Positions 29,430 through 63,018 of a stretch of DNA of 64,000 bases are shown piece after piece; the first letter of the stretch is position 1; the number at the start of each line of letters is the position of its first letter. The position numbers and the translations under genes were made by a program. The DNA is from Streptomyces griseochromogenes (GTDB lineage Bacteria; Actinomycetota; Actinomycetes; Streptomycetales; Streptomycetaceae), in NCBI RefSeq assembly GCF_001542625.1, contig NZ_CP016279.1, positions 3,968,001-4,032,000 on the forward strand, written 5' to 3'. The notes beneath the pieces are model-generated. The model was given only the letters and a program-made list of their open reading frames with translations, made no database searches and was not told where the DNA came from.

Positions 29430-30584
29430 GTGGCGCAGGGTTCGTTGCCCCGGGGGATGGGTTCGTTCTTCAAGGAGTGCGAGCATCCGCGCTCGCGGTG
29501 GGCGAAGTGCCCCCACCTCTACAAGATCCGGTACCGGTCGGCCGCCGGTAATCAGTTGGAGGAGACGGGGTTCGCCACCCAGGACGACGCCATCGAGCGT
29601 TTGACGGAGATCTACAAGGAGAAGAAGGCCGCAAGGCAGTCGCAGCCGAAGGCGGAGCGCATCCGGAAGTACGGGGCGATGCGCTTCGAGGAATACGCTG
29701 AGGAGTGGAGGGCCGGGCAAAGGCACCTGGCTGTGGGCTCTCTTCGGCACCTCGACTCCCTCCTGGAGCACCACATCTATCCGACGCTTGGCAGACGGCG
29801 GATGAACTCCTTCGACCATAAGGTGGTCGACGGCTTCATTCGCACGATGGAGCGCAACGGCGTTGGTCTGGCCACGCAGTCCAACGCCTTCGACAAGTTG
29901 CGTTCGATCCTCCTCGACGCCCATCGGCTCGGGCTCTTCTCCGACAACCCTGTGGCTGGTGTGAAGGAACCGCAGTACGACCCCGCGCGGGCTGTCATCC
30001 CCTCGCCCGAGCAACTCCGCGGGATACGTGCTGCGGGCGATGACGCGTTCATGTTGATCGTCGACATGATGAGTGGTTGCGGCCTGCGGAACGGCGAAGC
30101 GTACGCGGTCAATATCAACAACATTGTGGCCGACGACGTGTACCGAGTCTCCGAGCAGGTGGTCATGGCCTCCCGGCAGTACGGGCCGCTCAAGCACCGG
30201 AAGCCGGGGGACTATCGCGATGTTCCCCTGCCGGCCCAGGTCAGGGAGACGATCGAGTGGTACGTCGACAAGCATGGAACGGTCGATGGCTATCTGCTCC
30301 GCCAGCCCAGCGACCCCACTAGGCCGTATCCGCACTACGCGGTGGACAATCAGTGGAAGCGGATCAAGGCGTCGGGCACGGTGGACATCCCGAAGGGCAT
30401 GGTGGTTTACGGGAATCGCCACTTCTTCGCGTCCAACTGCCTTACGCACGGCATCCCCATCACGGACGTTGCTGAGTGGATGGGGCACAAGAGCATCGAA
30501 GTCACGTTCAAGATCTACCGGCATCTCATGCCCGGCTCGATCAGCTCCGCCGCCCAGATCCTCAATCTCGGCTTGGCTGCTTGA
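29430..30584 (+). CDS. Tyrosine recombinase / integrase 1
   Basis: A 384-residue phage-type integrase. GTG at 29430 is chosen because GAGGAG lies at 29415-29420 and it aligns with the ATG of the second copy at 63111. The N-terminus has an arm-binding domain (KIRYRSAAGNQLEETGFATQ), a core-binding SAM-like domain about residues 70-165, then the catalytic domain. Catalytic residues seen: Arg220 (CGLRNGEA), Arg330 (GNRHFFAS, with Tyr in place of the usual His three residues before), His353 (WMGHKS) and the nucleophile Tyr363 (FKIYRHL). It is adjacent to the pirin fragment and shares roughly three-quarters of its residues with the copy at 63111. GGTCAGC-like repeats in its leader are candidate arm sites. 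Confidence 0.9.
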   Translation: MAQGSLPRGMGSFFKECEHPRSRWAKCPHLYKIRYRSAAGNQLEETGFATQDDAIERLTEIYKEKKAARQSQPKAERIRKYGAMRFEEYAEEWRAGQRHLAVGSLRHLDSLLEHHIYPTLGRRRMNSFDHKVVDGFIRTMERNGVGLATQSNAFDKLRSILLDAHRLGLFSDNPVAGVKEPQYDPARAVIPSPEQLRGIRAAGDDAFMLIVDMMSGCGLRNGEAYAVNINNIVADDVYRVSEQVVMASRQYGPLKHRKPGDYRDVPLPAQVRETIEWYVDKHGTVDGYLLRQPSDPTRPYPHYAVDNQWKRIKASGTVDIPKGMVVYGNRHFFASNCLTHGIPITDVAEWMGHKSIEVTFKIYRHLMPGSISSAAQILNLGLAA

Positions 30585-36870: not shown

Positions 36871-37106
36871 GTCCCCTCCGAGGCGTGGCCAGCGCTCGTC
36901 AGCGAGCGGTGACCCCCGACGTGGGCGTAACGGCGGCAAGGACGCCGATGCCGAGTATTGGTCGCGAGGACGCAGGTGGCCGGTCGCTCGCGGTCCCGCG
37001 GCCGGGTCCCTGCTCGTGTCCGTGGCCCCGGCCCGGGAATGCCGTTCGGCCTTACCCGGGACACCATGGAAATAGAACCGTTTCCACACCCTGGGGGTGA
37101 GCAACG

Positions 37107-38435
37107 ATGCCTGCCGGGATCGTCCCCGATTATCTGGCTTTGGTTCCTCCGGCTACGGCTGCTCATCTGTCCGCCGCCGGCGCAGGCCCCTCGGGTTCCA
37201 GCTCGACGCCCGTGTGGGCCGCGATCCTGGCCAGTTCCGTTGTCGGCGCTTGCGTGGCCGCCGCGACCAGCATCCTCACCACGAAATGGAGAAATAAGCA
37301 AGCGGACAAAGAAATGAGCCAAGCTGCGTCTCTGGCGGAGACACAAATGAGCGAAACTGCGCGTATAGCGGGCAATACCATCAGTGACGCACAACACCGC
37401 TTGAGAGACGAGCTCGATGCGCAGCGGGAGCGACTGGCGAAGCAGCTGGCGCAGGATAGGAGGAAGCTGCTGTCCGATCGGTTCGCCGCGATCTCCGTCC
37501 AGCTGGGGGATGACTCGCGTTCGGCGCGGCTGGCCGCGGTGTACGGGCTGGCGGGGCTGGCCGACGACTGGGACCAGCCGGACGAGGCAGGTCAGCGCCA
37601 GACCTGCATCGACGTCCTATGCGCGTACTTGCGGATGCCGGTCGCCCCCTACCCCGGTGACAAGGCGTGTGCCGAGGTGTTGGGCCCGTGGCGGGCCGAG
37701 CATGAGGTCCGGCACGCCATCGTCGGGCTTATCCGCGCCCATCTCCTCAGTGGTGCGCACAAGTCGTGGCAGGGATGTGACTTCGACTTCACCCGCGCGA
37801 CCTTCGATGGCGGCAGTTTCAAGGATGCCGAGTTCTGCAAGCGGGTGAGGTTCCACGGCGCGACCTTCCGTCCCGGCAACGGAGCGGAGGTGACGTTCGA
37901 GGAGGCGGCGTTCCGCCCCGGCTGCGAGGTGGAGTTCTGGGGAGCCACCTTCGCCGGCACCCGTTCCATCGTGTTCCGGAAGGCGAAGTTCACTGGCGGC
38001 TCGGTGATGTTCCGTGATGCCCACTTCAACGAGGGCGCCGTCGTGTTCGATGATGCCCAGTTCACCGGCGGAAAGGTCGATTTCAGTGGTGCTGAGTTCA
38101 GCGGCGGCGAGATCACGTTCAGGCACGCGCGTTTCGGCGGCGCCACCGTCCTGTTCGACAACTCCACCTACTCCGATGCCACGGTCGGCTTCTGGGATAC
38201 CAAGTTCAAGAAGGGGCAGGTCAGCTTCGACCGTGCGGCCTTCGGCCCGGGAAGCGGGAAGGTGGACTTCGGCGGCTCGTTCTTCATAGGGGCGGACGTA
38301 CAGCTCGAGACGGCGGCCTACAACGGCCTCTCCGTCAACCTCGCCCATGTGAGCGGGAGCCGGCCGCCGAAACTCCCTCCGGGACCCCGTCGAGGACTAT
38401 CCCGGCCGTCGAAATTCCCCTCCGCGGCTGCGTAA
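37107..38435 (+). CDS. Membrane-anchored pentapeptide-repeat-like protein
   Basis: A 442-residue protein with ATG start after GGGGGTGAG. One membrane helix (VWAAILASSVVGACVAAATS, about 36-55) is followed by a coiled coil (about 60-115, DELDAQRERLAKQLAQDRRK) and an alpha-helical linker (about 120-210). From about 215 a run of degenerate repeats of about 10 residues appears: CDFDFTRATFDGGSFKDAEF, ATFRPGNGAEVTFEEAAF, then AKFTGGSVMFRDAHFNEGAV and VDFSGAEFSGGEITFRHARF. This is the pattern of pentapeptide-type right-handed beta helices with central Phe. It should sit on the cytoplasmic face of the membrane. It follows the AAA+ gene by 236 bases on the same strand; co-function is possible. The last 35 residues are Pro/Arg-rich. 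Confidence 0.75.
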   Translation: MPAGIVPDYLALVPPATAAHLSAAGAGPSGSSSTPVWAAILASSVVGACVAAATSILTTKWRNKQADKEMSQAASLAETQMSETARIAGNTISDAQHRLRDELDAQRERLAKQLAQDRRKLLSDRFAAISVQLGDDSRSARLAAVYGLAGLADDWDQPDEAGQRQTCIDVLCAYLRMPVAPYPGDKACAEVLGPWRAEHEVRHAIVGLIRAHLLSGAHKSWQGCDFDFTRATFDGGSFKDAEFCKRVRFHGATFRPGNGAEVTFEEAAFRPGCEVEFWGATFAGTRSIVFRKAKFTGGSVMFRDAHFNEGAVVFDDAQFTGGKVDFSGAEFSGGEITFRHARFGGATVLFDNSTYSDATVGFWDTKFKKGQVSFDRAAFGPGSGKVDFGGSFFIGADVQLETAAYNGLSVNLAHVSGSRPPKLPPGPRRGLSRPSKFPSAAA

Positions 38436-39383: not shown

Positions 39384-42300
39384 TCACACGGTGGGGTTAC
39401 CGCCGAGCGCCCCGGCGAGGGTCACGATGAGGTTGGCTCCGCCCCGCCCGTCCGGGTCGGCGATCTCCGGTGGGTGCGCCAGTGGAGCACCCGGGGCGTG
39501 GGGGTCGGGTCCGGGCCAGAGGGGTAGCAGCTTGCCCAGGCCGCCTGCCGCGAGGACGTCGGTGAAGGCTTCGTGGGCGGAAGTGGGCTGGTGCAGGCGC
39601 ACCCAGTCCGCCGTTGGGGCGCCGACCGTGCTCGGTGCGGCGCCGCCGCCGACACCGCCTGTTCCCGCTGCCACACCCAGGTGGGCTGCCATGAGCTCCT
39701 TGCGGTGTGCGCGGATCGCCGTGCCGGCGCCCCGGTCGAGCTGCCAGTCGGTGAGGACGACGTCGTTTGCACCGTCGAAGGTCATGCCGCGTCGGCTGAG
39801 CGTGCTGGTGCCGCTGATGAGCCATACGTCGTCGACGATGACCGTCGTGGTGCGCAGGACCAGGGGCCTGCCCGGAATGCCCATCGGGTGTGCGATGAGG
39901 ACGCGGGGGCGGGTACCGCCGCCGGGTGCGGTCACGTTGCCTGCCGCGGCCTGGAGGGCTTGGGCCACCTGAGTGCGCGCGCTGTGGAAGTACATCGACC
40001 AGGGCTCGTAGCCGTGCGTGAACGGTGGCGTGCGCGGGACGAGGATCACCGCCCGCAGGCGTGGCTCGCTGCTGAGGCGGTTCGCGAGTTCGGTGAACAG
40101 ATCGACCGCAGCCGCGCCGTCGGCGGGGGCGCCTTGCGTGTGCGACGTCGGTGCCAGCAGCGGCGTCTCGATGTAGACGAGCCGGCGTGCGTGGCGGATC
40201 GCCCGCAGCAGCGCCCACTGGGCGTCGCGGCGCCCGTGCTTGCAGGTGCGGATCTCCCGGGTCAACTGGCGGGCGATCTCCGGCCGGTTGGGGAGCGTCG
40301 GGTAGGAGGGCAGTTCGTTGGTGACGAAGTTTTCGACCGCGGCCGTGTCGTCGTCGGGGATGAGTGCAAGCTCGGGCGTCTCGACGTACGCGGGTACGGT
40401 CTGCAGCACGGCGCCCGCGATCGATGACGGCGTGGCGGGTGGGGCCGGGGGCATGGATGCGGTGTTGGCCTGCAACAGCACCCAGTTGGACGGGGCGCCG
40501 GTGTTGGGCCCCCCTCCCAACGGCCCGGCGACGTCGGCCGTCGGTACGACCGGGCGTGCACGGTGCGCGGCCGCTGCCCACAGGTCGAAGCCGAGCTGGG
40601 ACGAGGCTCCCACGCCTGGCGCGTGGACCTCGTGTGCGCCCGCCGCGGCCGGGTTGGCGATGCGGTAGGAGTGGGTGTCGGTCTCGCTGGTGAGCCAGCC
40701 GCCGGTGAGCACCGACCGATAGAGGTCGGCACCGGCGGTAGCCGGCAACTGGGCTGCGAGCAGCGATTCCGTACGGGCCATGGTGGGCAGGCGGGGAGCC
40801 CGGCGAGGGTTCTGGTCGGTCGTCATCTGCCGGACGACGCTCTGGACGAAGGCGACCGGGTCGGCGAACGTGGTGGACAGCGTGAACGAGCCGGTCGCCG
40901 GCGAGCCGAGCAGCGGGGCGTCCGCCACGCCGCGCCAGAACTGGGCGGCCAGCAGGTTCGTCGGCGCACCGGCCGGACGGGGGACGTCAGCGGTGACAGG
41001 CCACGACAGGTTCGACACCAGCTTGACCTTCGGCCGACCACCTCCGGTGGGCAGCCAGGTCACGGTGGCATCGGCCCGCAGGTGCGCGGATCCGCCGCGC
41101 ACGGGCGTCGTGCCCAGTGAGAACGGGTCGGTGAGGACGATCGTGTCGGTGCCGCCGGTGACGACGGCGGCTCCGCCGTCGGCGCGCAGCAGCAGCGGTT
41201 GCTCGTCCGGGCCGGTACCGAGCAGGACCTTGACGGGGTAAAGGCGCACAGCGGCGCCGACGGGCAGTCCGGGGGGCAGCGTCACCAGGACGTCGTTGCC
41301 ACCGGCGATCCATTGCGCAGTCGTGGCGGTGCGCAAGGCGGCGCACCGGCCGAGGACGTCTGCGTCGCTGCCGGCCACAGGCACGGCGGCAGGGCTGGTG
41401 GGCCATCGGCCGGAGTTCCCGGGGGAGACGGCGAGCGGCCATTTCCCGTCGTCGAACATCACGCTCGCCGCGAAGACCGGACCGGACGTGAAGGTGCCCG
41501 ACGGGTTGCCGCCCTGGAGGCCGAGGATCGCCTGTGCGAAGAAGCCGAGGCAGGAACGGCCGTCGGGGAGCAGGGTGACCGGGCTGCCGTCGCGCACCGC
41601 GGGCGCCTCCTCCCCGGCGGTCGTCGCGTCCACGCCGGTGACACCGTCGCGGGTCGTCGTGGTGCGGTTGCCGAGCAGGTGAAAGGCCGGGTCGGTGATG
41701 GTGACACGCAGCCAGTCGCGGACGGGCGTGCGGGTTCCGGCGGACGGCCTGCTGAGCGGGGTGGTGGCCATGCGGCCGACGGTGCTCCAGCCGAAGCGCA
41801 GCAGGGTGGCCGGTGGTGGTGTCTGAGCGCCGTCGGGGTCGGCTCGGGCGCTGAGCACGGCCCCGGCCGGCCAGGAGTACGGCCTGCTGTCGTCGAGATG
41901 GGTGCCCTCGGTGCGGGATCCGGCGGTGCCGGTGTAGAAGCTGAGTCCGGTGTTGGGGCCGGGTGGGTCGGTCCAGGGCCTGCCGTGGAGGTCGACGAGG
42001 TGGACGAAGGTGCCGGCGCTCACGCTCGCGGCGATGGCCTGCGGGGTGCCCGTGGTCGCCCCACCGGGCGGCTGTGCGCCGAGGGCGGGGGTCCGGGTGA
42101 GGACCTCGGCGACCTGGGCGGCGAAGGCGAAGGGGTCGATGATGATGCCGTGCTCGTCGTGGAAGCTCACTTCTCCCGCCGGCATGAGCAGTTCTGCTGC
42201 GGCCAGGGAGAACGCCTGGGTCAGGGGAGTGGTGAGGTTGCGGACGAGGATGGTGGCGGGAACCGGGCGCAGCGACTGGTCGGGTGCTCCGCCGGTCTGC

Positions 42301-42626
42301 AGGGCTGCTACCCATTCCCGTTCCAGGCGCAGTCGTGCCTGAGGGTGGACGCGCAGTACGGCGCAGGGGGCGCTTGCGGGTTCGGCGGGGCTGCCGTCGA
42401 GGCGGGACAGGCCCAGCCGGCTCCCGTCGGCCACGGGCAGCAGCATCCCGGCGAGGGGCGCGTACCAGCTGGTCATCGTGGTGAACGTCAGCCTGTTCTC
42501 GTCCGTGGCGGGCGGTGTCTGGGTCCAGGCGGGGGAGAGGAGCGGGCCTGTCAGACCGAGTGTCGCGAGGCCGTCGGTGTTCAGGCGCCGGCGGATGTCG
42601 GCCTGTCCGGCCACGGTGAGGGTCAT
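39384..42626 (-). CDS. Giant-operon protein 3, about 1080 residues, with phospholipase-D-like C-terminal region
   Basis: ATG at 42626 overlaps the stop of the upstream gene (ATGA); the frame is open beyond it but that is inside the neighbour. Residues 1 to about 790 are beta-rich with no family I know. From about 803 it resembles phospholipase-D proteins: ALLRAIRHARRLVYIETPLL, then LRAVILVPRTPPFTHGYEPW, then LRTTTVIVDDVWLISGTSTL with SRRGMTFDGANDVVLTD. In active PLD the last segment is H-x-K-x4-D; here the His and Lys positions read Arg and Thr, while Asp and the small-residue loop remain. It may thus bind lipid or phosphodiester without cutting it. No signal peptide or membrane helix. Last gene of the operon. 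Confidence 0.75.
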   Translation of the reverse strand: MTLTVAGQADIRRRLNTDGLATLGLTGPLLSPAWTQTPPATDENRLTFTTMTSWYAPLAGMLLPVADGSRLGLSRLDGSPAEPASAPCAVLRVHPQARLRLEREWVAALQTGGAPDQSLRPVPATILVRNLTTPLTQAFSLAAAELLMPAGEVSFHDEHGIIIDPFAFAAQVAEVLTRTPALGAQPPGGATTGTPQAIAASVSAGTFVHLVDLHGRPWTDPPGPNTGLSFYTGTAGSRTEGTHLDDSRPYSWPAGAVLSARADPDGAQTPPPATLLRFGWSTVGRMATTPLSRPSAGTRTPVRDWLRVTITDPAFHLLGNRTTTTRDGVTGVDATTAGEEAPAVRDGSPVTLLPDGRSCLGFFAQAILGLQGGNPSGTFTSGPVFAASVMFDDGKWPLAVSPGNSGRWPTSPAAVPVAGSDADVLGRCAALRTATTAQWIAGGNDVLVTLPPGLPVGAAVRLYPVKVLLGTGPDEQPLLLRADGGAAVVTGGTDTIVLTDPFSLGTTPVRGGSAHLRADATVTWLPTGGGRPKVKLVSNLSWPVTADVPRPAGAPTNLLAAQFWRGVADAPLLGSPATGSFTLSTTFADPVAFVQSVVRQMTTDQNPRRAPRLPTMARTESLLAAQLPATAGADLYRSVLTGGWLTSETDTHSYRIANPAAAGAHEVHAPGVGASSQLGFDLWAAAAHRARPVVPTADVAGPLGGGPNTGAPSNWVLLQANTASMPPAPPATPSSIAGAVLQTVPAYVETPELALIPDDDTAAVENFVTNELPSYPTLPNRPEIARQLTREIRTCKHGRRDAQWALLRAIRHARRLVYIETPLLAPTSHTQGAPADGAAAVDLFTELANRLSSEPRLRAVILVPRTPPFTHGYEPWSMYFHSARTQVAQALQAAAGNVTAPGGGTRPRVLIAHPMGIPGRPLVLRTTTVIVDDVWLISGTSTLSRRGMTFDGANDVVLTDWQLDRGAGTAIRAHRKELMAAHLGVAAGTGGVGGGAAPSTVGAPTADWVRLHQPTSAHEAFTDVLAAGGLGKLLPLWPGPDPHAPGAPLAHPPEIADPDGRGGANLIVTLAGALGGNPTV

Positions 42627-45600
42627 GTGGTCACCTGGTGTGCGGTGGCGGAGGAGCCGTCGGAGTTGGTCAGCTGGAGCGCGACGTCCAGGGCGGACTC
42701 GGCTCGCAGCCACATCAGGATCCGGGCCGTGCCGTCGATGCGGCCGATCGCGAAGTCTGCGGGATCGAGCAGTGGGTCGGGCATTCCTGCCGCCGTCGGG
42801 ACGGTCGGGATGCCCGTCACGGCGAACGTCAGCATGGTGGCCGGCCCCACCGGGAAGGAGGCGCGCCGGATCCGGACCTTCAGGACCCAGTCGTGTGCCG
42901 GATCGGGCGGCAGGGGGATGTTGGTGTCGATCCTCAGATGCGCGATGCCCCCGTTCCGTACGGCGACGAGGTGCACGACGGGATGTGGGTCCGGCACGTG
43001 GGCCGGTACGTCGATGACGGCGTGGGTGGCGCGGTCCAGCGGATCGGTGAGGTCGACGGCCAGGCCGAGCGCCTGTCCGTCGAGTCGGTCGAGCCGTAGA
43101 TGCAAGACGTCCTCCACGTAGCCGGCGGGCTCGCCGCTGCCGGCGAACACGGAGGCCGAGGAGAATCCAGGCACCGCGCTCAGGGAGGACCGGAAGCGGA
43201 CCGGCGCGGTGCGCGCGGCGGTGACGGAGAAGGCCAGCGAGAAGTCGCCGATGTCCGAACCGCGCCGCAGGGCATCGGTGTCCACCCGTACGACGGCCGT
43301 CGTGCCGGTGCTCCCTGGCACGTTCGGTGTCAGGGTGAGCGCCGGTGCCGCCGGCGGCGGGTTGAGCAGGGCATACGAGCGTGACGCGGTGGACGGGACG
43401 GCCATCCCCGCGTGTTCGGGATCATCGGTGGTGAGGGCGACGACGCGGTACTGCAGGCGTGTCCAGCCGACGGGTGCGGTGGTGTCGGTGAACGTGGTCG
43501 TCCGCCAGGATGCGGGAGCGGTGGGGACGGTGGCGACGACTTCCATCGTGCCGGTGTGCCGGGCCAGGACGGCGTTGGTGGCACGGTGGATGCGCAGGGT
43601 GCTCACCGGGACGGCGCCGCCGACGTTCACGGTCAGCCGCGGATGACCCTGGTCGTCGAGGCTTGCGGTGATCTCCGGTTGCGCGGGCTGAAGGGGACGC
43701 GGGATCGCATAGGCGAAGAACGCCTTGCGGCCGTCGGCGTCCGGTTCCGGCCAGGCGGAGACGAGGTTCGCCTCGCTCACTCCGGCCACGACGTAGCAAT
43801 GGATGAGTGAACTGCCGCGCGGGAGCAGGGACTCGCATCGCATGGTGCCGTCGGTCTGCGGGACCGGCAGTACCGGGTCGGTGCCGAGTTTCCGGAACGC
43901 CGCTTTGAGTCCCGGCAGGTTGTTCGGGTCCTTGTACAGATCGAACAGCGCCTGCATGCGCGTGGACAGCTGCTCGGTGAGCACGGGGCCGGGCTTGCCA
44001 CAGGCGGCCAGCAGGGCGGCCTCGGTCGCCTCGTACACCCGGTAGCGCCACGCGCCGGTCGGGGTCCAGCTCACGGGGGCGTACGACAGTCCGGCGGCGT
44101 CCGGGAGGGACGCCCGCTCGGGGTACACGAGGGGTAGGGGGGCGGGCACGGGCGGGGGCAGGGGACTGGCGGCGATGGCGGCTTCGCGCGGATGCGACCA
44201 CGCGCTCCATTCCCCCGGCCGTACCGTCTCCTCTGCCTGGGCGTACACGGCGACGGCGAGTTCCGGGTTGCTGCCGTAGGTTGCCGGAAGGCCGGACAGC
44301 TCGATGCGGTAGCGGCGGTCGTCGCCTTGCGCGGGGTCGAGCGGGGTGACGGGCGTGTCGTCGTCGTGTACGGCGGTGACGGTGATCCCGGCGGGCGGCG
44401 CGGCCGGTGTGCCGTCGGCGGCGAAGGACAGGAAGACGTCGGCGACGGTGGCCGTTCCGCCCTGTGGGGCAGGCAGCGGCGCGTCGTACGGCGCAGGGGG
44501 CCCGGGTGTGGGCGGGTAGATGTCGACGGCCAGGCGCAAGCGGGCCAGCGAACGTTCGCGCCGGTTCCACACGACCTCAGTGGTGACCGCCATGTCGCAC
44601 GGATCGGTGTCCCCGGGACCGGCCGTGGCACGGGCCCGTACGGTGGCGACGGCAGGGGTCTGGACGTCGGGGGCGGCAAGGGAGAGCCACGCCGTCGACC
44701 ACGCGCTCCACTGACCGAACAGGTCGGTGGCGGCGGCCGCGTACTGAAAGGCCCCCGGTGAGCCGCTGATGGGCCGGTCGACGCCACTGTCGCGCAGCAT
44801 GACGGTGCCGGGCAGCAGCTCGGGGTCGGGCGGGTCCTGCGGCCGGCGTACGGGCTCGGCGGAGCCGATGGGGATCCAGCCCTCCGCCTGGGGGTGCTCC
44901 CGCAGCGCGTAGTGGCCGGTGCCGGGGCCGTCGAAACGGGCCAGGCCGTATGCGGACGGGCGTGGTTGCCCGGGCACCGGGGTCGGCCGTGTCGTGCGGA
45001 TCACCACGTTGGCCCGGTACGGCGCGTCGACGGCGTCCGTGCCCTCTTCGAAGGACGTTCGGGGTGTCAGCGGCGTGGGCGGTGACGGTGCTGCGCGCAG
45101 ACGTGGGGCCAGAGCGATGGCGACGAGTTCTCGCTCCACGTCAGCGGTGTCGTACTGCAGGGGAGGCCCGCCCGCGAGCCACGGCCAGGGCCATGGGGAG
45201 GGCACCGGGAAGCGGATCTGCCCGTGCCAGGGAACGGTGACCATGTAGTCGTAGCCGTCATGTGCCACATTGCGGTCGGGCAACGTGTCGCCGGTGCCGA
45301 AGCCCAGAGCCAGGCCGGCCCAGATGTCGCAGGCGACGGCCGCTGACAGCGATTGCAAGGGACGTACCGTCACGTGTGAGATGTTCTGGCCGCTCAGCGG
45401 CTGAGAGCGGGTACCGACGACTTGGCGCAGCTCGTCGAGCTTGTGCGCGACCTCGTGCGTGATCTGGCCGGCGACGAGCGGTGGCGGGTAGGCGGCCATC
45501 GCCTCGGCCAGGTCGGGCAGCACGTACTCCTGCATCTCCTTGACCAGGAGTTCGGGGTCCGGGGGCCGCCAGGGCGGGATTCCGGTGAGCGGGGCCCAGC

Positions 45601-46285
45601 CGAGGACCGGGCCCCAGCTCTTCAGGCGCCGTACGGCGGCGTCGAAGGCGCTGATTGGTGCTCCCACCGGACCCTGCTGCGTGCCCTGGTAGTAGGTGGT
45701 GGCTGCCAGGCCGGGGTCGAAGGGCAGACCGACAGTCTCCAAGGGCTGCCATCCGGGTCCGTCGGCCAGAGACAGGGTGGACTGGCCGCGGACGCCGGAG
45801 AACGATCCGGCCTGGTCGAGCCGGACGCCGAGCATCGGCCCGGCGTCCAGGACGACAGTCTCTCCGGCATTGCCCGAGACGGTCTGGACCGGGTCCAGCT
45901 CTGCCCGGCCGAGGCCCTGAGCCACCACGGGGCCGGTGAGGTCGATTTCGATGCGCTGCATCTCGGTGACGCCGTCCCAGCCCCAGGTGTCGGAGCCGGT
46001 GCGGTGCCAGCCCGGGATGGGTTGGGCCGGGCCGCGTTGACCGGCCGGGCGCCGCCAGACAGTGAAGGGCTCCGGCGGAACGCCCAGCGCCGGGTTGAGC
46101 GCCCAGCGCAACGCGACGTAGGGGGCGCGTTGCTGCACGCGCTGCAGGGTCGCCTCGTCGAACGGCGCGACGGTCGCCCAGTCCTGAGGGTTGCCGCTCT
46201 GTTCGAGGAGCTTCAGCTCCCGGCCCGGGTCGATGACGATCGCGTCGAGGAACAGTTCGCCCGGCAGGCTCGCGCGGGGTGCCAT
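42623..46285 (-). CDS. Giant-operon protein 2, 1220 residues, with fibronectin-III-like segments
   Basis: ATG at 46285 lies 3 bases after the stop of gene 1, and its own stop overlaps gene 3. The sequence is Pro/Ala/Thr-rich and predicted mostly beta. WSAWS-type strand ends occur twice (FGQWSAWSTAW near residue 521, RPGEWSAWSHPREA near 690), and about 890-960 reads like a fibronectin III unit (STLRIHRATNAVLARHTG, then FTDTTAPVGWTRLQYRVVAL). These resemble modular binding proteins. The N-terminal 350 residues have aromatic- and Trp-rich motifs (GWHRTGSDTWGWDGVTEMQR) without a family I know. There is no signal peptide, so export would need another route. It may be a scaffold linking proteins 1 and 3; this is inference from coupling only. 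Confidence 0.7.
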   Translation of the reverse strand: MAPRASLPGELFLDAIVIDPGRELKLLEQSGNPQDWATVAPFDEATLQRVQQRAPYVALRWALNPALGVPPEPFTVWRRPAGQRGPAQPIPGWHRTGSDTWGWDGVTEMQRIEIDLTGPVVAQGLGRAELDPVQTVSGNAGETVVLDAGPMLGVRLDQAGSFSGVRGQSTLSLADGPGWQPLETVGLPFDPGLAATTYYQGTQQGPVGAPISAFDAAVRRLKSWGPVLGWAPLTGIPPWRPPDPELLVKEMQEYVLPDLAEAMAAYPPPLVAGQITHEVAHKLDELRQVVGTRSQPLSGQNISHVTVRPLQSLSAAVACDIWAGLALGFGTGDTLPDRNVAHDGYDYMVTVPWHGQIRFPVPSPWPWPWLAGGPPLQYDTADVERELVAIALAPRLRAAPSPPTPLTPRTSFEEGTDAVDAPYRANVVIRTTRPTPVPGQPRPSAYGLARFDGPGTGHYALREHPQAEGWIPIGSAEPVRRPQDPPDPELLPGTVMLRDSGVDRPISGSPGAFQYAAAATDLFGQWSAWSTAWLSLAAPDVQTPAVATVRARATAGPGDTDPCDMAVTTEVVWNRRERSLARLRLAVDIYPPTPGPPAPYDAPLPAPQGGTATVADVFLSFAADGTPAAPPAGITVTAVHDDDTPVTPLDPAQGDDRRYRIELSGLPATYGSNPELAVAVYAQAEETVRPGEWSAWSHPREAAIAASPLPPPVPAPLPLVYPERASLPDAAGLSYAPVSWTPTGAWRYRVYEATEAALLAACGKPGPVLTEQLSTRMQALFDLYKDPNNLPGLKAAFRKLGTDPVLPVPQTDGTMRCESLLPRGSSLIHCYVVAGVSEANLVSAWPEPDADGRKAFFAYAIPRPLQPAQPEITASLDDQGHPRLTVNVGGAVPVSTLRIHRATNAVLARHTGTMEVVATVPTAPASWRTTTFTDTTAPVGWTRLQYRVVALTTDDPEHAGMAVPSTASRSYALLNPPPAAPALTLTPNVPGSTGTTAVVRVDTDALRRGSDIGDFSLAFSVTAARTAPVRFRSSLSAVPGFSSASVFAGSGEPAGYVEDVLHLRLDRLDGQALGLAVDLTDPLDRATHAVIDVPAHVPDPHPVVHLVAVRNGGIAHLRIDTNIPLPPDPAHDWVLKVRIRRASFPVGPATMLTFAVTGIPTVPTAAGMPDPLLDPADFAIGRIDGTARILMWLRAESALDVALQLTNSDGSSATAHQVTT

Positions 46286-46288
46286 GAC

Positions 46289-49200
46289 CTACACCACCTC
46301 CCAGGTCGCCGCGTCCAGGGTCAGAGCCAGCAGTGAGGTGTCGGTGTAGCCGGCTGCTTCGCCGAGGAAGGCGTTGCCGTGCTCGCGCAACGTCAGGCCG
46401 ATGGGTGCGCCGCGTCCGGCGTCGACGATCACGACGAGGGTGTTCAGTCCCGGCTGGGAGACGATGTGGAGGCCGGGCGCACCTGCGATGCCCTCGGTGG
46501 GCACGACTTCCAGGTGGGGCCGGTCCTGAAGGGTGATCACCTTGCGCTGCAGCCGGGGCACGCCGGGCGGTGCGTAGTCGACCGGTTCGCGGCGTGTGCG
46601 CACCAGTGGTTCCGGTGTGCGGACGATGAGAACGCGCGGCTGGAGCACCCCGGCCATGCTCACCCACAGCACGTCGACGGCCGGGTCGGTGACCGGCATC
46701 ACGGGACGCAGCCCGGCCTGCAGCAGCGCGGCGTCGAGCGCAGCCGCCGACAGCCGCCCGGGCGCGGTGACCAGCGCCTCGAGTCCGGCCACGGCGGAGC
46801 GCTCGGCGGGTGCCTCGGCCACCTCCGAGGTGGCGACGTCGGCCGCCATCGGTACGGGGTCGCGGTAGCGTGAGGTGGTGAACCCGCGCCGGAACAGGGG
46901 GCGTTGTAGGGCCTCGGTGGTCGGCTGGGGGGTGGCCTGCTCGATGTCGAAGACATAATCGGTGCGGGGCTCCAGCAGCAGGTCGAGGTCGAGGAGCTGG
47001 TGGCGGCTGATGCCTCCCGACATGTCGACGCAGGACTGGTCGGTGGCGATCGTGCGCACCATGTCCTCCCAGGGGGTGAAGACCGCGACGTTCTTCAGCG
47101 GCAGTGCATCCGCGGCCGTGAGGTCCTTGAACGTCTTGTCGAAGTCCGGGGACGCCGGGTCGGAGTGGCGGTACGACGCGGAGCGGACTCGGGCCCGCAG
47201 TGGTACGCCGTAGGTCTCGTACATGTTCAGGAGGTAGTCGACGGAGAACACCACGCGCAGCGGCCTGCCGTAGAAGCGGAAATGCTCCCCCTCGTCGGGG
47301 TCGGTGAGCAGGACCCAGGGGTCGAGGCGGGTGGGCATGGTGACCGTCTTGCCGTCGTCCGGCTTGGTGACCGTGGAGGGCCGGAGGGGCTCGGTGTCCG
47401 TCAGGAAGTGGAAGTCCTGGCCGGTACCGGCCGTCCACACCGCGTCGTCGGCGACGGCGCCGGCGGCGTCGCAGGTCGTCCATTCCCAGTCGACGTGCAG
47501 GGTGTACTGCGTGCCCGGCTGGAGGAGCGCCGGTGGATCCGGCATGCCCTTCAGCGCCCCGTTCACTGTGGTGATCTTGCTGTTTCTGATCAGGGTGTCG
47601 GTTTCCTCGCGGACTACTTCGGCGGCGGTGAGGGTTTCGACGATGCCGACGAGGTAGGCGGGCCGGCTCAGCCCCTTGCCGGTCAGCTCCGCCGCCTCGC
47701 GGATGCCGAGCTGGATGTAGGAGGTGCCTTCCTTGACCGGGGTGTCGACGAGCACCAGGCGCAGACTCTGCTGCCTCTGCCCGGCGTTGATTCCGGTGAG
47801 GAGGCTTCCGACCTCGCGGACGCGGCAGTACCACGGGCCGTCGGGGTCCAGCCAGCTGCCCGGTACATCGCCTGCCGAGGTGACGAAGCGGCTGTGGCCC
47901 GTCCCGTTGACCGGGAACTCGTCGAGGATCTTGCCGCTGCCGGAGAAGCAGCGCAGAACGAGGGAGTCGGTCTTGACCAGGAGCGCCGGCACGTCCAGCA
48001 GAATGCGGACGGAGACGACGGGGCCGGTCCTGAGGGCGATGATGTCGTCGAGGTGGTCGGTGCGCTGCTGTTCCGCCGCCTGGGCGAGAGAGCCGAGGAC
48101 GTCGCCGAGCGGGTGTCCCTGGAGCAGCGCGGGATCGGTGTGGCGCAGGAACGGCGCTTCGAGGGCGTGTGCCCAGCATGCGCCGCGGTCGGCTGCGGCC
48201 AGCCGTGCGTTGGCGACCGGGTCGTGCCGGGCGGCGAGATGCAGCAGTTCGCTGCCTGGGCGCGGGCGCGAGACGTCGAGGCCGGGTGACTGGGGCCAGC
48301 AGCGATCGTCGCAGCCGACGGTGTCGCCGATGACGCGTGCCGGTGCGATGTCGGTGATCAGGTCGATCGCGGCATCGCCGGTGCGCCAGGTCTCGGCGAC
48401 GTCGAGACGCAGTTCGGGGGGCATGCTGCGGGTGCTGCCCGGGGGGTCGGGCCAGGCGGTTCCGGTCAGGGCCCAGCCGACGGTGGACGGTCCCAGGGGC
48501 GTGTCGTGGAAGGTCCACAGCACCGATGTGGCGGGAGCGACCGGATCGCAGAGCGTCGACCACGTCTGGGTGAGTTGGTCGTCCCGGTGCCGGCTGCGCT
48601 CCACGGCGCAGGGGTGCGGGTCGGGTACGCGGGTCAGCAGCGCCAGTTCGCGCTTGCTCTCAGAGCCGGGGTGCGGTTCGGTGGGCCACCAGACGACGGG
48701 TACGTCGCCGCGGGTCAGCGCGTGGTCGAGGGCGATGGACTTGATCCGGTAGGTGTAGTAGGGCTCGCCACGACGCACCGCCGGCGCGGCGGGGCCGTCG
48801 GGAGTGGCCAGCGGCACGCTCACCGAGCCGTCGGGATTGGCGGTGGTGAACGCGGCGTTCTTGACGATGCGCGGTGTGCAGTCAAGGTGCACGACGATGA
48901 TGGAGTCGATGGGCACGGCCTCGCCGGCCGGGGCAGGACCGTCGGCGTGCGCGTCACAGAGCTTGCCGTCGATGGGGCGGTCGCTGGAGACGCCGGTGAG
49001 CAGTGCGGCGGCGCGTGACTGCAGGCTGACACCGGTGACGAGCGGGGGCGGCGCTGTCGTGCTGTCGGGCTTCGTACCGAGTTCGACATGGACGGAGCCC
49101 TCGATACTGAAGAAGAAGAAGTCGACCTTTCCGTGGACTTCACCCTCGATGTGGGCGACGTCCTGGCCGGCGAGGTGGCCGGCGATCACCGAGAGCCGGG

Positions 49201-52200
49201 CCGATGCCTCGACGCCGATGATCCACAGGTGGAGTTCGCCCCAGAGCCTCAGCTCCCCGGTGAAGGTGAGCGGCTCGAATCCGACGCCGACATCGATCGA
49301 GGCGCCGACGGAGAGGTAGAGACCGCTGCCGCGGTCACCCCAGACGAATGACGCCGAGACACCGGCCATGATCGCGAAGCCGGTGAGCGGCCGGGGCAGC
49401 GGGAAGTTGCCCTGGCCCGCGTCGTAGTTGTCGGTGGGCGCCGAGGTGTCGGGAATGCCCTTGCCACGGATCATCACGTAGCCGTGCGCGGCGAAGACCT
49501 CGAAGAACGTCACCGTCGCGGGCGCGTACCAGCTGCCGGCGTCGATGGCGAAGTGCTCCAGGTCGTCGAACGGGAAGACGGCTCGGACCGGGATGTGGAC
49601 GTGGAGCAGCGGCTTGATCCCGTAGTCCAGGGTGAGTCCGATGCTGATGCGGTGGCGGCCGAGGTCGAGGTCGATGACGGCGAGGATGGTGGCGGTGACG
49701 TCTCCCTGGCGCGGTGGGCGCGGGGAGAGGACGTCGGCTTTCATCACCATGAGGATGCGCGGTCCCGGCAGCTCAAAGATGATCAGGCCCTTGACGTTCA
49801 GGGTGAACCCGCTGTCGACCGTGCCGAGCACGGCGCCGAGGCCGATGGCCCAGCCATCGATGTCGGGCACCCACCCGCTGATGTCGAGCGGGTTGCCGTG
49901 CACCCTGGTCAGCCAGTCCAGCGCCGGCACCGGCGTGTTCGGGTTCTCGTCGCGCCTGTGATGCTGGGCGAACAGTCCGCCGAAGCCGTAGACGCCCAGG
50001 CCGGAGTTGCCGAGCGGGATCGGCACGGGGAAGTCGACCTCGAGGGTGACGAGCACCGCCGTGGCGGTGCGGCGCGCGTCCCGGGGATCGGCGACGTGAC
50101 GTACGGAGAGTCCGGCGGCCAGCCGGACGCCCAGGCCCGGCAGGGCCACGTCCAGCTGACCGGCGAAGCCGTCCGGGTAGATCGCGAGATATCCGTGGCC
50201 GTCGATCGCGCCGGGTACGCTGATGTGCACGCCGAGCGCGCCGATCTGCGGGAGGTTGCCTCCTTCGAGCGGGATGCGGATCGTGGTGCGGTCGATCGAC
50301 ACCACGCCGAGGTCGGCCTTGAGTTCGAGGTCGAGTTCCAGGTTGACCGGGTTCGACCGGGCGATGCGGGCCCCGGCCACCTGGAGGATGTCACCGAGCG
50401 GTGCGGGCACCTTGATGCCGCCGGTGCTCGGGATGTTGACGGTGTAGCCCTTGGAGGAGTCGAAGACCGGCAGCAGGTCACGGAGTTGCGGCTGGCCGGA
50501 GGTCTTGAAACCGACCGCCTTGTACCGGACGGTGACGGGGCTCTTCGGATCCGTATCGATGATCTTGGTACCGCTGAGGTCGAGGACGATGACGAGCGCG
50601 ACCTCCACGTCCAGCAACAGCACACCGCGGGTCCCGGCGGCATCGTGCACGACCGTGAGTTCGCCCCCGTAGAGGGTGATCCTCGGGACGCTCACCGCCT
50701 TGAGCTTCAGCGCGGCGAAGGGAATTCCCGCCGATACGGTGAGAGCGACGACGTCACCGGCTGGAGTGTTCGAGGCTGCGAGCGCGTCGGTGAGCGGCGC
50801 CAGGGCGATCAGCATCCCGAAGAACGACCGCCAGAACCGCTCGGCGTCCGCCCCCTCGGACGCCGCAGTCGGAGGCGGCGTCTGTAGGAAGCCGTCCTTG
50901 TCGTCCTCGAAGAGGCCGGCCACCACCTGCCAGCGGTCCACCGTGTCGTCGAGCGTCAACTGCACCCGGATGTCGAGCACACCGTCGTGCGCGTCGGCCC
51001 GATTGCCCACCGGCAGCAGCGTCGGCCCCTGCCCCTCGGGCGGCACCTCGCCCGGGTTGCCGGTCTTCACCTTGCTGAGATAGCTCTCCAGCGCCGTCTC
51101 GATGTCGACCTTGAGCTTGACCTCCACCGCGATCAGCCGGTTGTGATCGATCTCGACCCGTACGTGCAGTTCCTTGAAGCGCACGGTGTCGGTGCCGGCC
51201 GGCTGCCGCGGCACGACCGACGGCTTCACCGGCGTGTTTTTCGCCGGTCGAGCCGGGCGGGAGAGACGGACCGCGGCATGCTCGGTCCTGGCGGGCGAGC
51301 CACCGGTCAGCACCGTGGCGTCGACCCGGCGATACTCGCTGCGGCCCGGTGCGAAGAAGCCGGTGTGGACAGGCGGCGGCTGCTCGCCCAACGGGTGCTC
51401 GACGATGGTATTGCTGATCCCGTGGGCGGTGAGGAACGCGCGCATGGCCCAGATCCGTCGTTGCGACAGCCGGAGGTTGTAGGTGTCGAGGGGCTGGTGT
51501 TCCTTGCTCGCCATGCCTTTCAGCTCGACGGGTTGGGCCGGGTTGGCCTGTGCCGCCGTCTGCCATGCCTCGAACTCAGTACTCGTAGCGAGATAGTTGC
51601 CGGGCTCCTTCCACCCAGGGCTGTCCGGGCCGCCCTCGTCGTCCGACGGGACCGTGCGCATGGCGGCGGCATCGGAGGCGAACGCCGCCCACACCGGGTC
51701 GTCCGGGGACTGCACCTCATGGGGCGTACGGGCGGGCTGGTCATAGGCGAAATATGCGGTGAGGGTCGTCGGCGTCGACGGCGGCACGGCGTCGACCGCC
51801 CAGGTCGCCGCCACATCGAGCTGGGTGCCGTGCGCCAGGTCGACCGTGACCCGGCCGGAACCGTCCACGGCGAGAGGGGCGCCGTCGACGGTCACCGCCG
51901 TAGGAACCGGCGGGGTGAAGACGAGTGTCACCTTCTCCCCGGCGGGCGAGTCCTCCATCGTGATCACGTAACCGGCGGAGCCGGGCGTGGTCACGTCGAT
52001 GCCGGCGGCCTGGTCGCCGCCCTGGGGCGTGCCCGCGGTGAGCGAGGCCGCTGTGAGCCTGACCGGGAACGTCGCCGAGCGGTTCTGCCCTCCGGTGTGC
52101 ACGTCCTGGACCTGCACCGCCACGTCCTTGCCGCTCTGACCGGCAGGGATCGTGACGAGGACCGGGGCGGCGTTCTGCACCGTCCCGTCGACTTGGATGT

Positions 52201-53371
52201 TGTACGGCGGCTGGCCACCCGCCACGTCCACGACCCACTGCGTCCTGGCGGGCACGAAGAGAGGTTCTGCCGTGTACGGCGCGCCGCCGGCCGGCAGTTC
52301 CTGCCGATGGAGAAACGCGCCGAATTCGTCGTAGATCCCGACCGACACGTGCTGAGGTGCATCCGGTTTGACGATGTCCAGACCGAAGACCCCGGACACA
52401 CCGCCTTCTGGGCCAATGCCGATGAGAAGCTCACGGGCCGAGACGTCGACGCCGAGGCCGTCGAGGCCCGGCGGTCGGACGAACACCCGAACGTCGGGCA
52501 GGTACACCCCACGGAAGTCCGCGCCGACGCCGAATTTGTCGAGCAGTTCGGGGGGTGTCTCGGTGCCCGACAGATCGAGGATCAGCGACTGGAACCCGAA
52601 CCCCAGCACCGCGCCAGGGCCGATCAGTGCGTACGGCGGACTCATTCGCAGCAACTCGGCATAGGCATCGCCGGCCGGGTCGTCGATGTCGTGCGCGGCC
52701 CACGAGTCGAGTGAGATGTCCAGCTGCGGGTCGGTGGTGGCAGTGCCGGCCGTCTGCTCGAGCGACAGCTTGATACGGGGAAGGGTGAGAGTGACCTCGG
52801 GATGGACGGGGTCCTCGGCGAGCATGCCGTCCGGGCCGAGCATCGCACCGGTCAGGAAGGGAAGGTGCAACGTCGCCGCGTCCAGGAGCAGATCGAGGTG
52901 GAACACCGTCCCCGGGGCATCCTGCCCGGGCGCGCCAGGCCCGGGCACGCCCTGGCCGAGCCCGGCCAGTACGCCTGCCAGCGCGGCATCGTCGATCTGT
53001 GGAGCCGGCGTGCCGCCCGGACCGCCGGTGAGCGTGTCGACCGCGGGTGAGGAGGCTCGCGGGGCGACGAGCCGGAACCGGATGCCGATGTCCGGGAAGT
53101 CCCACCAGGCCCCGGCCCGCCGTACGGTGCGGTGGTCCACCGCGGCCTTCCCCCCGAAGGAGACCGAGGACGGTGGGGTGAACCTTGGCGGATTCCCGGT
53201 CAGCTCGGCACTGAAGCGGGCCATCCCGGAGACGACGACACCGCCGTCGTCGAAGGCCGTTTCGACGTCCTGCACGAACAACGCCGACAGCAGTTCGTGC
53301 AAAGGCTCGCCGATGGCCGCCCCGCCGAGTGCGTACGGCGCCATGATGTCGATGAGCGCGAGACTTCCCAT
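46289..53371 (-). CDS. Giant-operon protein 1, about 2360 residues, beta-rich with internal OmpA-like segment
   Basis: ATG at 53371 is preferred (GGGAGG 11 bases upstream); an in-frame GTG at 53383 is too close to that site. Residues 1-590 are beta-rich. About 612-690 resemble an OmpA C-terminal domain: VELKGMASKEHQPLDTYNLR, LSQRRIWAMRAFLTAHGIS, then RSEYRRVDATV. About 720-1600 contain long alternating strands (LELDLELKADLGVVSIDRTT, FPVPIPLGNSGLGVYGFGGL, LYLSVGASIDVGVGFEPLTF) recalling DUF6603-type giant proteins; that link is from memory. The last 750 residues are mixed. No signal peptide, transmembrane helix or catalytic motif is visible. It is the first gene of a tight three-gene operon. 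A near-identical fragment of residues about 291-349 is encoded at 57871-58044. Confidence 0.75.
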   Translation of the reverse strand: MGSLALIDIMAPYALGGAAIGEPLHELLSALFVQDVETAFDDGGVVVSGMARFSAELTGNPPRFTPPSSVSFGGKAAVDHRTVRRAGAWWDFPDIGIRFRLVAPRASSPAVDTLTGGPGGTPAPQIDDAALAGVLAGLGQGVPGPGAPGQDAPGTVFHLDLLLDAATLHLPFLTGAMLGPDGMLAEDPVHPEVTLTLPRIKLSLEQTAGTATTDPQLDISLDSWAAHDIDDPAGDAYAELLRMSPPYALIGPGAVLGFGFQSLILDLSGTETPPELLDKFGVGADFRGVYLPDVRVFVRPPGLDGLGVDVSARELLIGIGPEGGVSGVFGLDIVKPDAPQHVSVGIYDEFGAFLHRQELPAGGAPYTAEPLFVPARTQWVVDVAGGQPPYNIQVDGTVQNAAPVLVTIPAGQSGKDVAVQVQDVHTGGQNRSATFPVRLTAASLTAGTPQGGDQAAGIDVTTPGSAGYVITMEDSPAGEKVTLVFTPPVPTAVTVDGAPLAVDGSGRVTVDLAHGTQLDVAATWAVDAVPPSTPTTLTAYFAYDQPARTPHEVQSPDDPVWAAFASDAAAMRTVPSDDEGGPDSPGWKEPGNYLATSTEFEAWQTAAQANPAQPVELKGMASKEHQPLDTYNLRLSQRRIWAMRAFLTAHGISNTIVEHPLGEQPPPVHTGFFAPGRSEYRRVDATVLTGGSPARTEHAAVRLSRPARPAKNTPVKPSVVPRQPAGTDTVRFKELHVRVEIDHNRLIAVEVKLKVDIETALESYLSKVKTGNPGEVPPEGQGPTLLPVGNRADAHDGVLDIRVQLTLDDTVDRWQVVAGLFEDDKDGFLQTPPPTAASEGADAERFWRSFFGMLIALAPLTDALAASNTPAGDVVALTVSAGIPFAALKLKAVSVPRITLYGGELTVVHDAAGTRGVLLLDVEVALVIVLDLSGTKIIDTDPKSPVTVRYKAVGFKTSGQPQLRDLLPVFDSSKGYTVNIPSTGGIKVPAPLGDILQVAGARIARSNPVNLELDLELKADLGVVSIDRTTIRIPLEGGNLPQIGALGVHISVPGAIDGHGYLAIYPDGFAGQLDVALPGLGVRLAAGLSVRHVADPRDARRTATAVLVTLEVDFPVPIPLGNSGLGVYGFGGLFAQHHRRDENPNTPVPALDWLTRVHGNPLDISGWVPDIDGWAIGLGAVLGTVDSGFTLNVKGLIIFELPGPRILMVMKADVLSPRPPRQGDVTATILAVIDLDLGRHRISIGLTLDYGIKPLLHVHIPVRAVFPFDDLEHFAIDAGSWYAPATVTFFEVFAAHGYVMIRGKGIPDTSAPTDNYDAGQGNFPLPRPLTGFAIMAGVSASFVWGDRGSGLYLSVGASIDVGVGFEPLTFTGELRLWGELHLWIIGVEASARLSVIAGHLAGQDVAHIEGEVHGKVDFFFFSIEGSVHVELGTKPDSTTAPPPLVTGVSLQSRAAALLTGVSSDRPIDGKLCDAHADGPAPAGEAVPIDSIIVVHLDCTPRIVKNAAFTTANPDGSVSVPLATPDGPAAPAVRRGEPYYTYRIKSIALDHALTRGDVPVVWWPTEPHPGSESKRELALLTRVPDPHPCAVERSRHRDDQLTQTWSTLCDPVAPATSVLWTFHDTPLGPSTVGWALTGTAWPDPPGSTRSMPPELRLDVAETWRTGDAAIDLITDIAPARVIGDTVGCDDRCWPQSPGLDVSRPRPGSELLHLAARHDPVANARLAAADRGACWAHALEAPFLRHTDPALLQGHPLGDVLGSLAQAAEQQRTDHLDDIIALRTGPVVSVRILLDVPALLVKTDSLVLRCFSGSGKILDEFPVNGTGHSRFVTSAGDVPGSWLDPDGPWYCRVREVGSLLTGINAGQRQQSLRLVLVDTPVKEGTSYIQLGIREAAELTGKGLSRPAYLVGIVETLTAAEVVREETDTLIRNSKITTVNGALKGMPDPPALLQPGTQYTLHVDWEWTTCDAAGAVADDAVWTAGTGQDFHFLTDTEPLRPSTVTKPDDGKTVTMPTRLDPWVLLTDPDEGEHFRFYGRPLRVVFSVDYLLNMYETYGVPLRARVRSASYRHSDPASPDFDKTFKDLTAADALPLKNVAVFTPWEDMVRTIATDQSCVDMSGGISRHQLLDLDLLLEPRTDYVFDIEQATPQPTTEALQRPLFRRGFTTSRYRDPVPMAADVATSEVAEAPAERSAVAGLEALVTAPGRLSAAALDAALLQAGLRPVMPVTDPAVDVLWVSMAGVLQPRVLIVRTPEPLVRTRREPVDYAPPGVPRLQRKVITLQDRPHLEVVPTEGIAGAPGLHIVSQPGLNTLVVIVDAGRGAPIGLTLREHGNAFLGEAAGYTDTSLLALTLDAATWEVV

Positions 53372-53383: not shown

Positions 53384-53811
53384 CTCCCGGGCCGTACGGG
53401 TACGGAGGAACAGACTGACCCGATCCGGACATTGGGGCCAGCCTCGACACAGGTTGCGAAGACGCGTTCGTCGTGTGCCATTCCAGGCCCCTGACCAGCA
53501 AGAACATGGCTCTTGCCCCTGCCGTTCAGTAACAGTTCAGGAGCACACAATCAGGCGACGAGATGACAGACGAATGGCGTAGAAGACCCCGCGTGGACGA
53601 GAGTGAGGAGGACGAGGCGCTGGCGTCCCCTGGTTCTGTCTCTTTGGCCATGTCGTGTCCAAATAAGGATGGCCACTGGGTGGAGTGCGGCCAGGTATGC
53701 GATGGCGAGTTTGATCCCTCTTATGGATGTCAACCGGCGGGGCTGGTGCAGGGGCACCACATGCTTTAGGTACATCCACTGAGCTTGTCCTACCTTCCAA
53801 GCGTGGGTCTA
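53384..53811. other. Upstream region of the giant operon, about 430 bases
   Basis: It should contain the operon promoter on the minus strand; I see no clear consensus. A 75-codon minus frame (53551-53775) has a hydrophobic stretch but no ribosome-binding site and is probably not a gene. Confidence 0.4.
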
Positions 53812-54665
53812 GGAGGTCATCTCATTTGGGGTGTTCGATAGGCTCCAGATGTGGGGATCGTTGAGCGGCTTGTGCCGGATGAGCTGTGGGAGTTGTTCCA
53901 GCGAGTGGTTCCGGAGGCGCCGAGTCGGCCTCAGGGTGGTGGCCGGCGCCGGCACGGCGACCGGGAGGTGTTGGCTGCGATCGTGTTCGTGGCCACGTCG
54001 GGCTGCACGTGGCAGCAACTGCCGTCCGCCTCGTTCGGGCTTTCAGGGCCCACGGCTCACCGGCGCTTCGCCGAGTGGTCGAAGGCCCGGGTGTGGGCGA
54101 AGCTCCATCGCCTGGTCCTCGACGAACTCGGCTCTCGCGGTGAACTGGACTGGTCTCGCTGCGCGATCGACTCGGTGAACATGCGAGCCCTGAAAAAGGG
54201 GACCTGACAGGTCCGAATCCGGTGGATCGCGGCAAGTACGGTTCAAAGATCCACTTGATCACCGAGCGTACCGGGCTGCCCCTGTCCGTCGGGATATCCG
54301 GTGCCAACCTGCACGACAGCCAGGCCCTCGAACCGCTCGTGCGAGGCATCCCACCCATTCGCTCCCGGCGCGGACCGCGCCGACGACGGCCCGCCAAACT
54401 CCACGGCGACAAAGGCTACGACTACAACCACCTGCGCCGATGGTTACGCAGCCGCGGCATCCGACATCGCATCGCCCGCAAAGGCATCGAGCCCTCCACA
54501 CGGCTGGGCCGCCACCGCTGGACGATCGAACGCACCATGGCCTGGCTCGCCGGATGCCGCCGCCTCCACCGCCGCTACGAACGCAAAGCCGAACACTTCC
54601 TGGCCTTCACCAGCATCGCCTGCACCCTCATCTGCTACCGCAGACTCACCAAATGAGATGACTTC
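53812..54665 (+). mobile_element. IS5-family insertion sequence, about 854 bp
   Basis: Inverted ends share GTCATCTCATTTGG (53816-53829) and its exact complement (54649-54662). The match extends outward with two mismatches. The flanking triplets are CTA and TTA, a TNA-type target with one difference, so the target repeat is not perfect. Confidence 0.8.
53851..54656 (+). CDS. IS5-family transposase in two frames
   Basis: OrfA (GTG 53851) has the N-terminal helix-turn-helix (VERLVPDELWELFQRVVPEA) and first Asp (WSRCAIDSVNMRALKKG); it stops at the TGA ending at 54207. OrfB has KYGSKIHLITERTGLPLSVG, the second Asp in LHGDKGYDYNHLRRW and the Glu region TIERTMAWLAGCRRLHRRYE, ending at 54656. A -1 slip on G-AAA-AAG (54192-54198) would join them as LKKGDLTGPNPVDRGK. 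The slippery site is close to the classic A-AAA-AAG. All catalytic parts are present. Confidence 0.8.
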
Positions 54666-54755
54666 TTAGCCGCCCGGAGCCCCGCGACGACTCGACCGCT
54701 GGTCGCCGCCGTCGGCGGCTCCCTGGGCGAGTCCCTCGCCGAGGTTGTCGCCCGC

Positions 54756-57521: not shown

Positions 57522-57870
57522 TACGGTCCGGCGCCGGCCCGGTCCTTGCCGGAGGCTTCGTCCGTCCCGGTCATGGTCGGCGTCGTACGAGTTGGCCGAC
57601 GAGACCGTCCAGCGGGGAAGAAATTCCATGGGGACGCGGCCCACTTGGAGAAAGGTGACCTTGTCGCCGTGGTCGGCGACATGATGGCTTGTAAGCAGAG
57701 TGATCTTGCTGATCGGGTGGGCGAACGACAACAGCTGTAGACCGCCGGCCCGGTCGCGCGCTGCGCGCCCTCACGAGCTATGTGGGGCAGCAGTGCATCG
57801 CAGTGCCTCGGCGCCTCGCTGTCCTGGTGCAGACGGTGTAGTCGACGGCGAAGGCGTATCACCGGCGGAA

Positions 57871-58044
57871 CTCGTCGTAGATCCCGACCGACACGTGCTG
57901 AGGTGCATCCGGTTTGACGATGTCCAGACCGAAGACTCCGGACACGCCGGCTTCTGGGCCAATGCCGATGAGAAGCTCACGGGCCGAGACGTCGACGCCG
58001 GGGCCGTCGAGGCCCGGCGGTCGGACGAGCACCCGGACGTCGGG
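57871..58044 (-). pseudogene. Duplicate fragment of giant-operon gene 1
   Basis: These 174 bases match 52325-52498 with about six differences (roughly 97 % identity). In the minus frame both encode VRPPGLDG-type sequence through SARELLIGIGPE and DIVKPDAPQHVSVGIYDEF. Similarity stops abruptly at both ends. The rest of 57522-58194 shows nothing I recognise. Confidence 0.85.
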
Positions 58045-63015: not shown

Positions 63016-63018
63016 ATC
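63001..63018. other. Putative attachment-site core, right copy
   Basis: Identical over 18 bases to 29322-29339. The distance between the two copies, 33.7 kb, would be the size of the integrated element. Confidence 0.5.

Follow-up and report, generated by a model that had tools for sequence, protein, structure and literature searches.

What do three giant genes, lying one after another on a single strand, build together? The question is raised by a 64,000-nucleotide stretch of the Streptomyces griseochromogenes genome (NZ_CP016279.1, positions 3,968,001 to 4,032,000; hereafter the window), in which the genes g1, g2 and g3 follow each other on the minus strand. Our analysis supported the three genes as an operon-like unit: their order is conserved, and the giant products are apparently not secreted. 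Computation further showed that g1 is related to both DUF6603 and OmpA, that its core is predicted to form amphipathic strands, and that g3 is predicted to adopt a phospholipase D (PLD) fold and has lost the HxK pair of its second motif. The best reading of these features is engagement of lipid or envelope.

The three-gene unit and its conservation

The gene boundaries are listed in Table 1, with lengths that assume ATG starts at 53371 for g1 and 42626 for g3. A 3-base gap (46286-46288) separates g1 from g2, and g2 overlaps g3 by 4 bases (42623-42626); strand, lengths and spacing are all as the original prediction had described them. Database copies agreed in length (P0144, 2360 aa, for g1; P0001, 1080 aa, for g3), and in the source genome, a single 10.76-Mb contig, g2, g3 and the g1 core each matched once. 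In all three genes the GC content was higher at third codon positions (GC3, 0.87-0.89) than at second positions (GC2, 0.50-0.60), indicating that all are coding. Judged by hydropathy alone, without a dedicated predictor, none of the proteins has a signal-peptide-like N-terminus or a convincing membrane helix, which bears out the earlier claim on both counts. The maximum 19-residue hydropathy was 2.00 for g1, 1.44 for g2 and 1.16 for g3; seven g1 windows exceeded 1.6, and the g1 peak (residues 916-934) falls within a predicted strand of its core.

Protein searches found relatives of each part, at least 104 for g3, at least 39 for g2 and at least 199 for the g1 core, annotated as hypothetical, "OmpA family", "large repetitive", "DUF6603 domain-containing", "cadherin-like" or "phospholipase D-like". 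Scanning 84,980 species genomes with two g3 peptide patterns gave at least 63 loci, a lower bound. All three genes, each an open frame of more than 500 aa, were present in 54 of the 60 loci examined, and every one of these 54 had the order g1-g2-g3 on one strand; the frames were long and single in 51 and some were broken in L019, L058 and L061. Among the incomplete loci, four start inside the cassette (L016, L036, L039, L049), L055 is reduced and L059 holds the PLD-like part only. Co-occurrence in the same order in other genomes, which the original prediction had raised, was thus found, and since homologues of all three genes exist and their order is conserved, the cassette is not a chance arrangement.

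Pairwise distances of g1, g2 and g3 correlated at 0.957-0.967 (raw values, 55 rows). The dN/dS ratio was 0.029-0.432 in 29 of 30 comparisons, with one undefined and some saturated, suggesting that the cassette is under purifying selection. A g3 tree of 58 rows, built by a quick method, spanned nine phyla and required 15 phylum changes against a minimum of 8 and a shuffled mean of 25.7; g3 is therefore clustered by phylum yet with cross-phylum placements. The nearest row to the window's g3 was Rhizobium tropici (60% identical), and the hosts include both monoderm and diderm bacteria. No g3 was found in 60 same-genus genomes searched, and relatives were seen in Streptomyces geranii (L028) and Streptomyces naphthomycinicus (P0105, g2 92%). 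The 398 genomes of the phylum of genome G022 gave no other g1 core except a fragment at E 8.8e-4. One Granulosicoccus genome carries a typical cassette and a second, strongly diverged g1-g2-g3 in the same order (L095 with L102), in which g2 is weakly related (20%) and g3 likewise has no HxK. The PLD-like domain of g3 was also seen alone on a short contig of a Rhodanobacteraceae bin (L059:9782-10846), in the vicinity of genes that by eye resemble phage-tail genes.

Because a g3-anchored locus set by design cannot reveal the absence of g3, a g1-anchored search was added. Among 296 genomes of the class it gave six strong matches (the window's own genome, G124, G732, G747, G914 and G112). In five of the six g2 lies downstream of g1, weakly matched in G914 (E 5.5e-18), and g3 adjoins g1-g2 in the window's genome only; no g3 match was present in the 4 to 10 kb after g2 in G124, G732, G747 and G914. 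The G112 contig ends 277 bases past a g1-like frame of 2957 aa, which limits the view downstream. A strict three-gene rule was thus ruled out, and since g3 is missing beside g1-g2 in these loci, the arrangement looks like a constant g1-g2 core whose third partner varies. In G112, an actinomycete genome, a PLD gene lies immediately upstream of the g1-like giant (L134:1270-8998). Read by eye, each half of this PLD has an HxK pair, and the second half also shows the canonical HxKxxxxD spacing.

Predicted domains of g1, g2 and g3

Searched as single sequences, g2 and g3 had no Pfam match and g1 matched OmpA at E 0.3 only, while the OmpA-type matches in NCBIfam were far under cut-off. Family profiles were more informative. 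A 33-row profile of the g1 OmpA region matched OprF at E 9.7e-7, together with further OmpA-like rows, and 22 of its 33 members matched Pfam OmpA at E<=0.1, the best of them at 3.1e-9. Taken by itself, the copy in the window scored 17.2 bits, below the 27.2 cut-off. By profile the domain resembles the peptidoglycan-binding domains of OprF, Pal and YfiB and retains the N and R of the motif, with Arg80 invariant across the 33 rows. It differs in having an invariant Ser63 at the position of the Asp that, together with Arg, contacts the ligand in OmpA-like domains. It is also embedded in a giant protein that lacks a signal peptide and occurs in monoderm hosts too. One g1 homologue (P0215) additionally has PF01471, presumably a peptidoglycan-binding domain.

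In the AlphaFold2 (AF2) model, the g1 core consists of long amphipathic strands (strand alternation z 9.0). Aligned by hhalign, it matched the DUF6603 alignment at E 6.4e-11 across 391 columns, and PF20248 (DUF6603) was matched in 15 of 48 g1 members at E<=1 (best 2.1e-12) and is precomputed for many g1 homologues; the window's own copy by itself gave no DUF6603 match in Pfam. By these alignments the g1 core is homologous to PF20248, a Pfam entry that carries no function. PDB sequence searches with profiles of the g1 core and g1 C-terminus returned nothing useful. A 180-bp piece 4.5 kb upstream of g1 (57865-58044) is 95.6% identical to g1 residues 296-354 (long frame) and is a candidate relic of a second g1 copy or duplication.

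The AF2 model of g3 (pLDDT 89.4, pTM 0.93) matched PLD structures in the PDB and has the two lobes of that fold, whereas a PDB sequence search with the g3 profile gave nothing useful. In the hhalign alignment of 92 rows, the columns of the second HxKxxxxD motif held H in 1 and K in none, with D932 in all 92, and a new invariant motif, RRG.TFDG, was present. Region 476-503, which by strand order would be the first HxKxxxxD motif, has no conserved H or K and carries R481 in 91 of 92 rows. By model and alignment, then, g3 contains an entire PLD fold in which the catalytic residues of the second motif have been lost, which corrects the PLD-like module proposed earlier. Like human PLD1 and PLD2, plant PLD alpha and Pseudomonas PldA, g3 has the two-lobed fold; it differs from them in the missing HxK pair of the second motif, in about 310 extra N-terminal residues and in the invariant motif. 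The FAM83 pseudo-PLDs are reported to have a PLD-like domain without PLD activity and to be anchors for CK1 (PMC6008594). The likeness to g3 is one of description, and the FAM83 proteins are vertebrate.

For g2, there was no Pfam match at E<=1 with the single sequence, and the best PDB profile match had E 0.2; the fibronectin-III-like module previously assigned to it was not confirmed, while the OmpA-like module (family profile) and the PLD-like one (model and profile) both stood. Our impression from its sequence is that g2 may be of beta-sandwich nature.

Table 1 Positions in the window of the three genes, their domains and the integrase-like stretches.
Feature	Position	Strand	Description or basis
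g1	46289..53371	-	2360 aa; OmpA-like domain and DUF6603-related amphipathic beta core
g2	42623..46285	-	1220 aa; no known family
g3	39384..42626	-	1080 aa; complete phospholipase D fold predicted inside
OmpA-like domain, g1 residues 560-705	51257..51694	-	33-row profile and Pfam OmpA
DUF6603-related core, g1 residues about 893-1432	49076..50695	-	AF2 model; hhalign; Pfam; strand alternation
PLD fold with inserted segment, g3 residues about 310-1057	39456..41699	-	AF2, PDB matches
Former second HKD motif, g3 residues 925-952, now RTT...DD...RRG.TFDG	39771..39854	-	hhalign alignment
Integrase gene and 77%-identical second stretch (1147 bp)	29165-30306 and 62844-63987		33.7 kb apart; region bracketed

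Proposed function and competing explanations

We tentatively propose that g1, g2 and g3 form a giant complex in the cytoplasm, with lipid or the envelope as its binding partner. Produced together, the three proteins would probably assemble into one such complex. The long amphipathic beta sheet of g1 would be the working surface, its apolar face holding lipid or other hydrophobic cargo, and the OmpA-like domain could dock to peptidoglycan or to a protein. The role of g2 may be that of a scaffold accompanying g1. We infer that g3 would be a phospholipase D turned binder, with the fold retained and the second-motif H and K replaced; the conserved site rich in Arg and Asp that is new in g3 could bind phosphate or an anionic headgroup and leave it uncut.

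Alternatively, the amphipathic meander of g1 might close as a large membrane beta barrel, steered by lipid binding of g3 and held by the OmpA-like domain, and serve as a membrane-inserting device against rivals or for programmed lysis. We consider this unlikely. No secretion signal was seen by hydropathy, the neighbourhoods share no immunity-like gene or secretion system, the PADLOC defence search gave no match (which also ruled out a known defence system), the hosts are both monoderm and diderm, and an rmsd (root-mean-square deviation) near 10 A falls short of demonstrating a barrel. The same beta-rich giants, although leaderless, could instead reach the outside through lysis or some other route and coat the cell surface or its surroundings; the PLD and OmpA folds would then only bind wall or matrix. 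The OmpA-like domain and the PF01471 of the g1 homologue speak for such a coat; the missing signal peptide, the Ser in place of the ligand-contacting Asp and the lack of an exporter common to the neighbourhoods make it rather doubtful.

The neighbourhood bears on a third possibility, that a mobile island carries the genes as its cargo and that their role is defensive or selfish. The original prediction placed them between putative attachment sites. The region is bracketed by an integrase gene and a similar stretch (Table 1), of which the 29165-30306 copy was scanned by Pfam; no tRNA and no attachment-site-like (att-like) repeat beyond this pair was found in the window, so that bracketing by attachment sites was supported in part only. 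Transposase genes lie on either side: a DDE_Tnp_4 frame ends 32 bases short of the end of g3, and upstream of g1 an IS4/5-type gene is flanked by 33-nt inverted arms (53802-53834 and 54644-54676). A strong Imm49 immunity-protein match (26567-28321, E 1e-63) lies just outside the bracketed stretch, and an AAA-ATPase gene and a pentapeptide-repeat gene (34702-38435) lie where the GC content of the window is lowest (57-61%).

In other genomes, 30 stretches upstream of g1 have in common only the start of g1, and downstream any family beyond the cassette and its antisense frames occurred in at most 8 of the 64 loci. Of 267 open reading frames (ORFs) picked within 4.5 kb, 88 were scanned by Pfam; no family appeared in more than 4, and Phage_integrase appeared in 2, so the suggestion that the genes travel with integrases was not borne out and mobile-element cargo as a general rule was ruled out. 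By eye, the large neighbours seemed unrelated and resembled ordinary host genes. No relative was confirmed in phages or among 146 pattern stretches in viral contigs, PHROGs gave a single match (E 0.024), and one plasmid record, from Rhizobium tropici, held g3. These searches ruled out a phage structural module, the exception being the lone PLD-like domain of L059 on its short contig. The island explanation, which the integrase pair, the transposases and the absence of g3 from same-genus genomes favour, is thus improbable given these flanks, the empty PADLOC search and the relatives in two other Streptomyces.

The wider DUF6603 class and its significance

PF20248 was present in 3 out of 198 genomes for the phylum, 8 out of 398 for G022's phylum and 30 out of 296 for the class. 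All 23 PF20248 loci fetched had at least two recurrent giant-cluster families on one strand (raw count); ORF selection missed the DUF6603 frame itself in L120 and L128, and L129 is a g1-g2 locus. In L107-L128, DUF6603 giants stand beside co-directional giant partners of at least two distinct sets, including a PhoD-like protein (L107, E 3.5e-5, below the Pfam cut-off) and an M64 peptidase (L109). These clusters share with the window a homologous g1 core and giant co-directional partners. Their partners appear to be other than g2 and g3, by the four alignments compared: hhalign gave E 0.11-0.78, so no homology was seen in that set, in which one alignment has 2 rows and the PhoD-like partner is not included.

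It is possible, if speculative, that DUF6603 giants mark out a so far undescribed class of multi-protein machines in the cytoplasm, encoded by compact cassettes across bacterial phyla. In each, a very large beta sheet facing lipid would be joined by giant partners particular to that machine, often one of enzyme fold (PhoD-like, M64 peptidase, motif-intact PLD, or g3 as a phosphate-binding pseudoenzyme). The term "DUF6603" was found in none of the 5.39 million papers searched, and the papers listed for giant genes and pseudo-PLDs had nothing on the g1-g2-g3 gene set. No function for the cassette emerged, and the statement that no described system has these genes was accordingly upheld, although most queries combined many terms. 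Overall, the original observation was confirmed and its interpretation partly supported.

Since 14 kb are kept under purifying selection in scattered genomes of many phyla, the cassette must be useful to its hosts. It offers a concrete entry point to the DUF6603 giants, and g3 provides a bacterial case of a PLD fold whose active site was seemingly rebuilt rather than lost, with the motif-intact PLD beside the g1-like gene of L134 as its possible evolutionary counterpart. Together, g1, g2 and g3 appear to be an undescribed intracellular protein machine that pairs a large oily-faced sheet with a phospholipase-shaped protein minus its catalytic residues.
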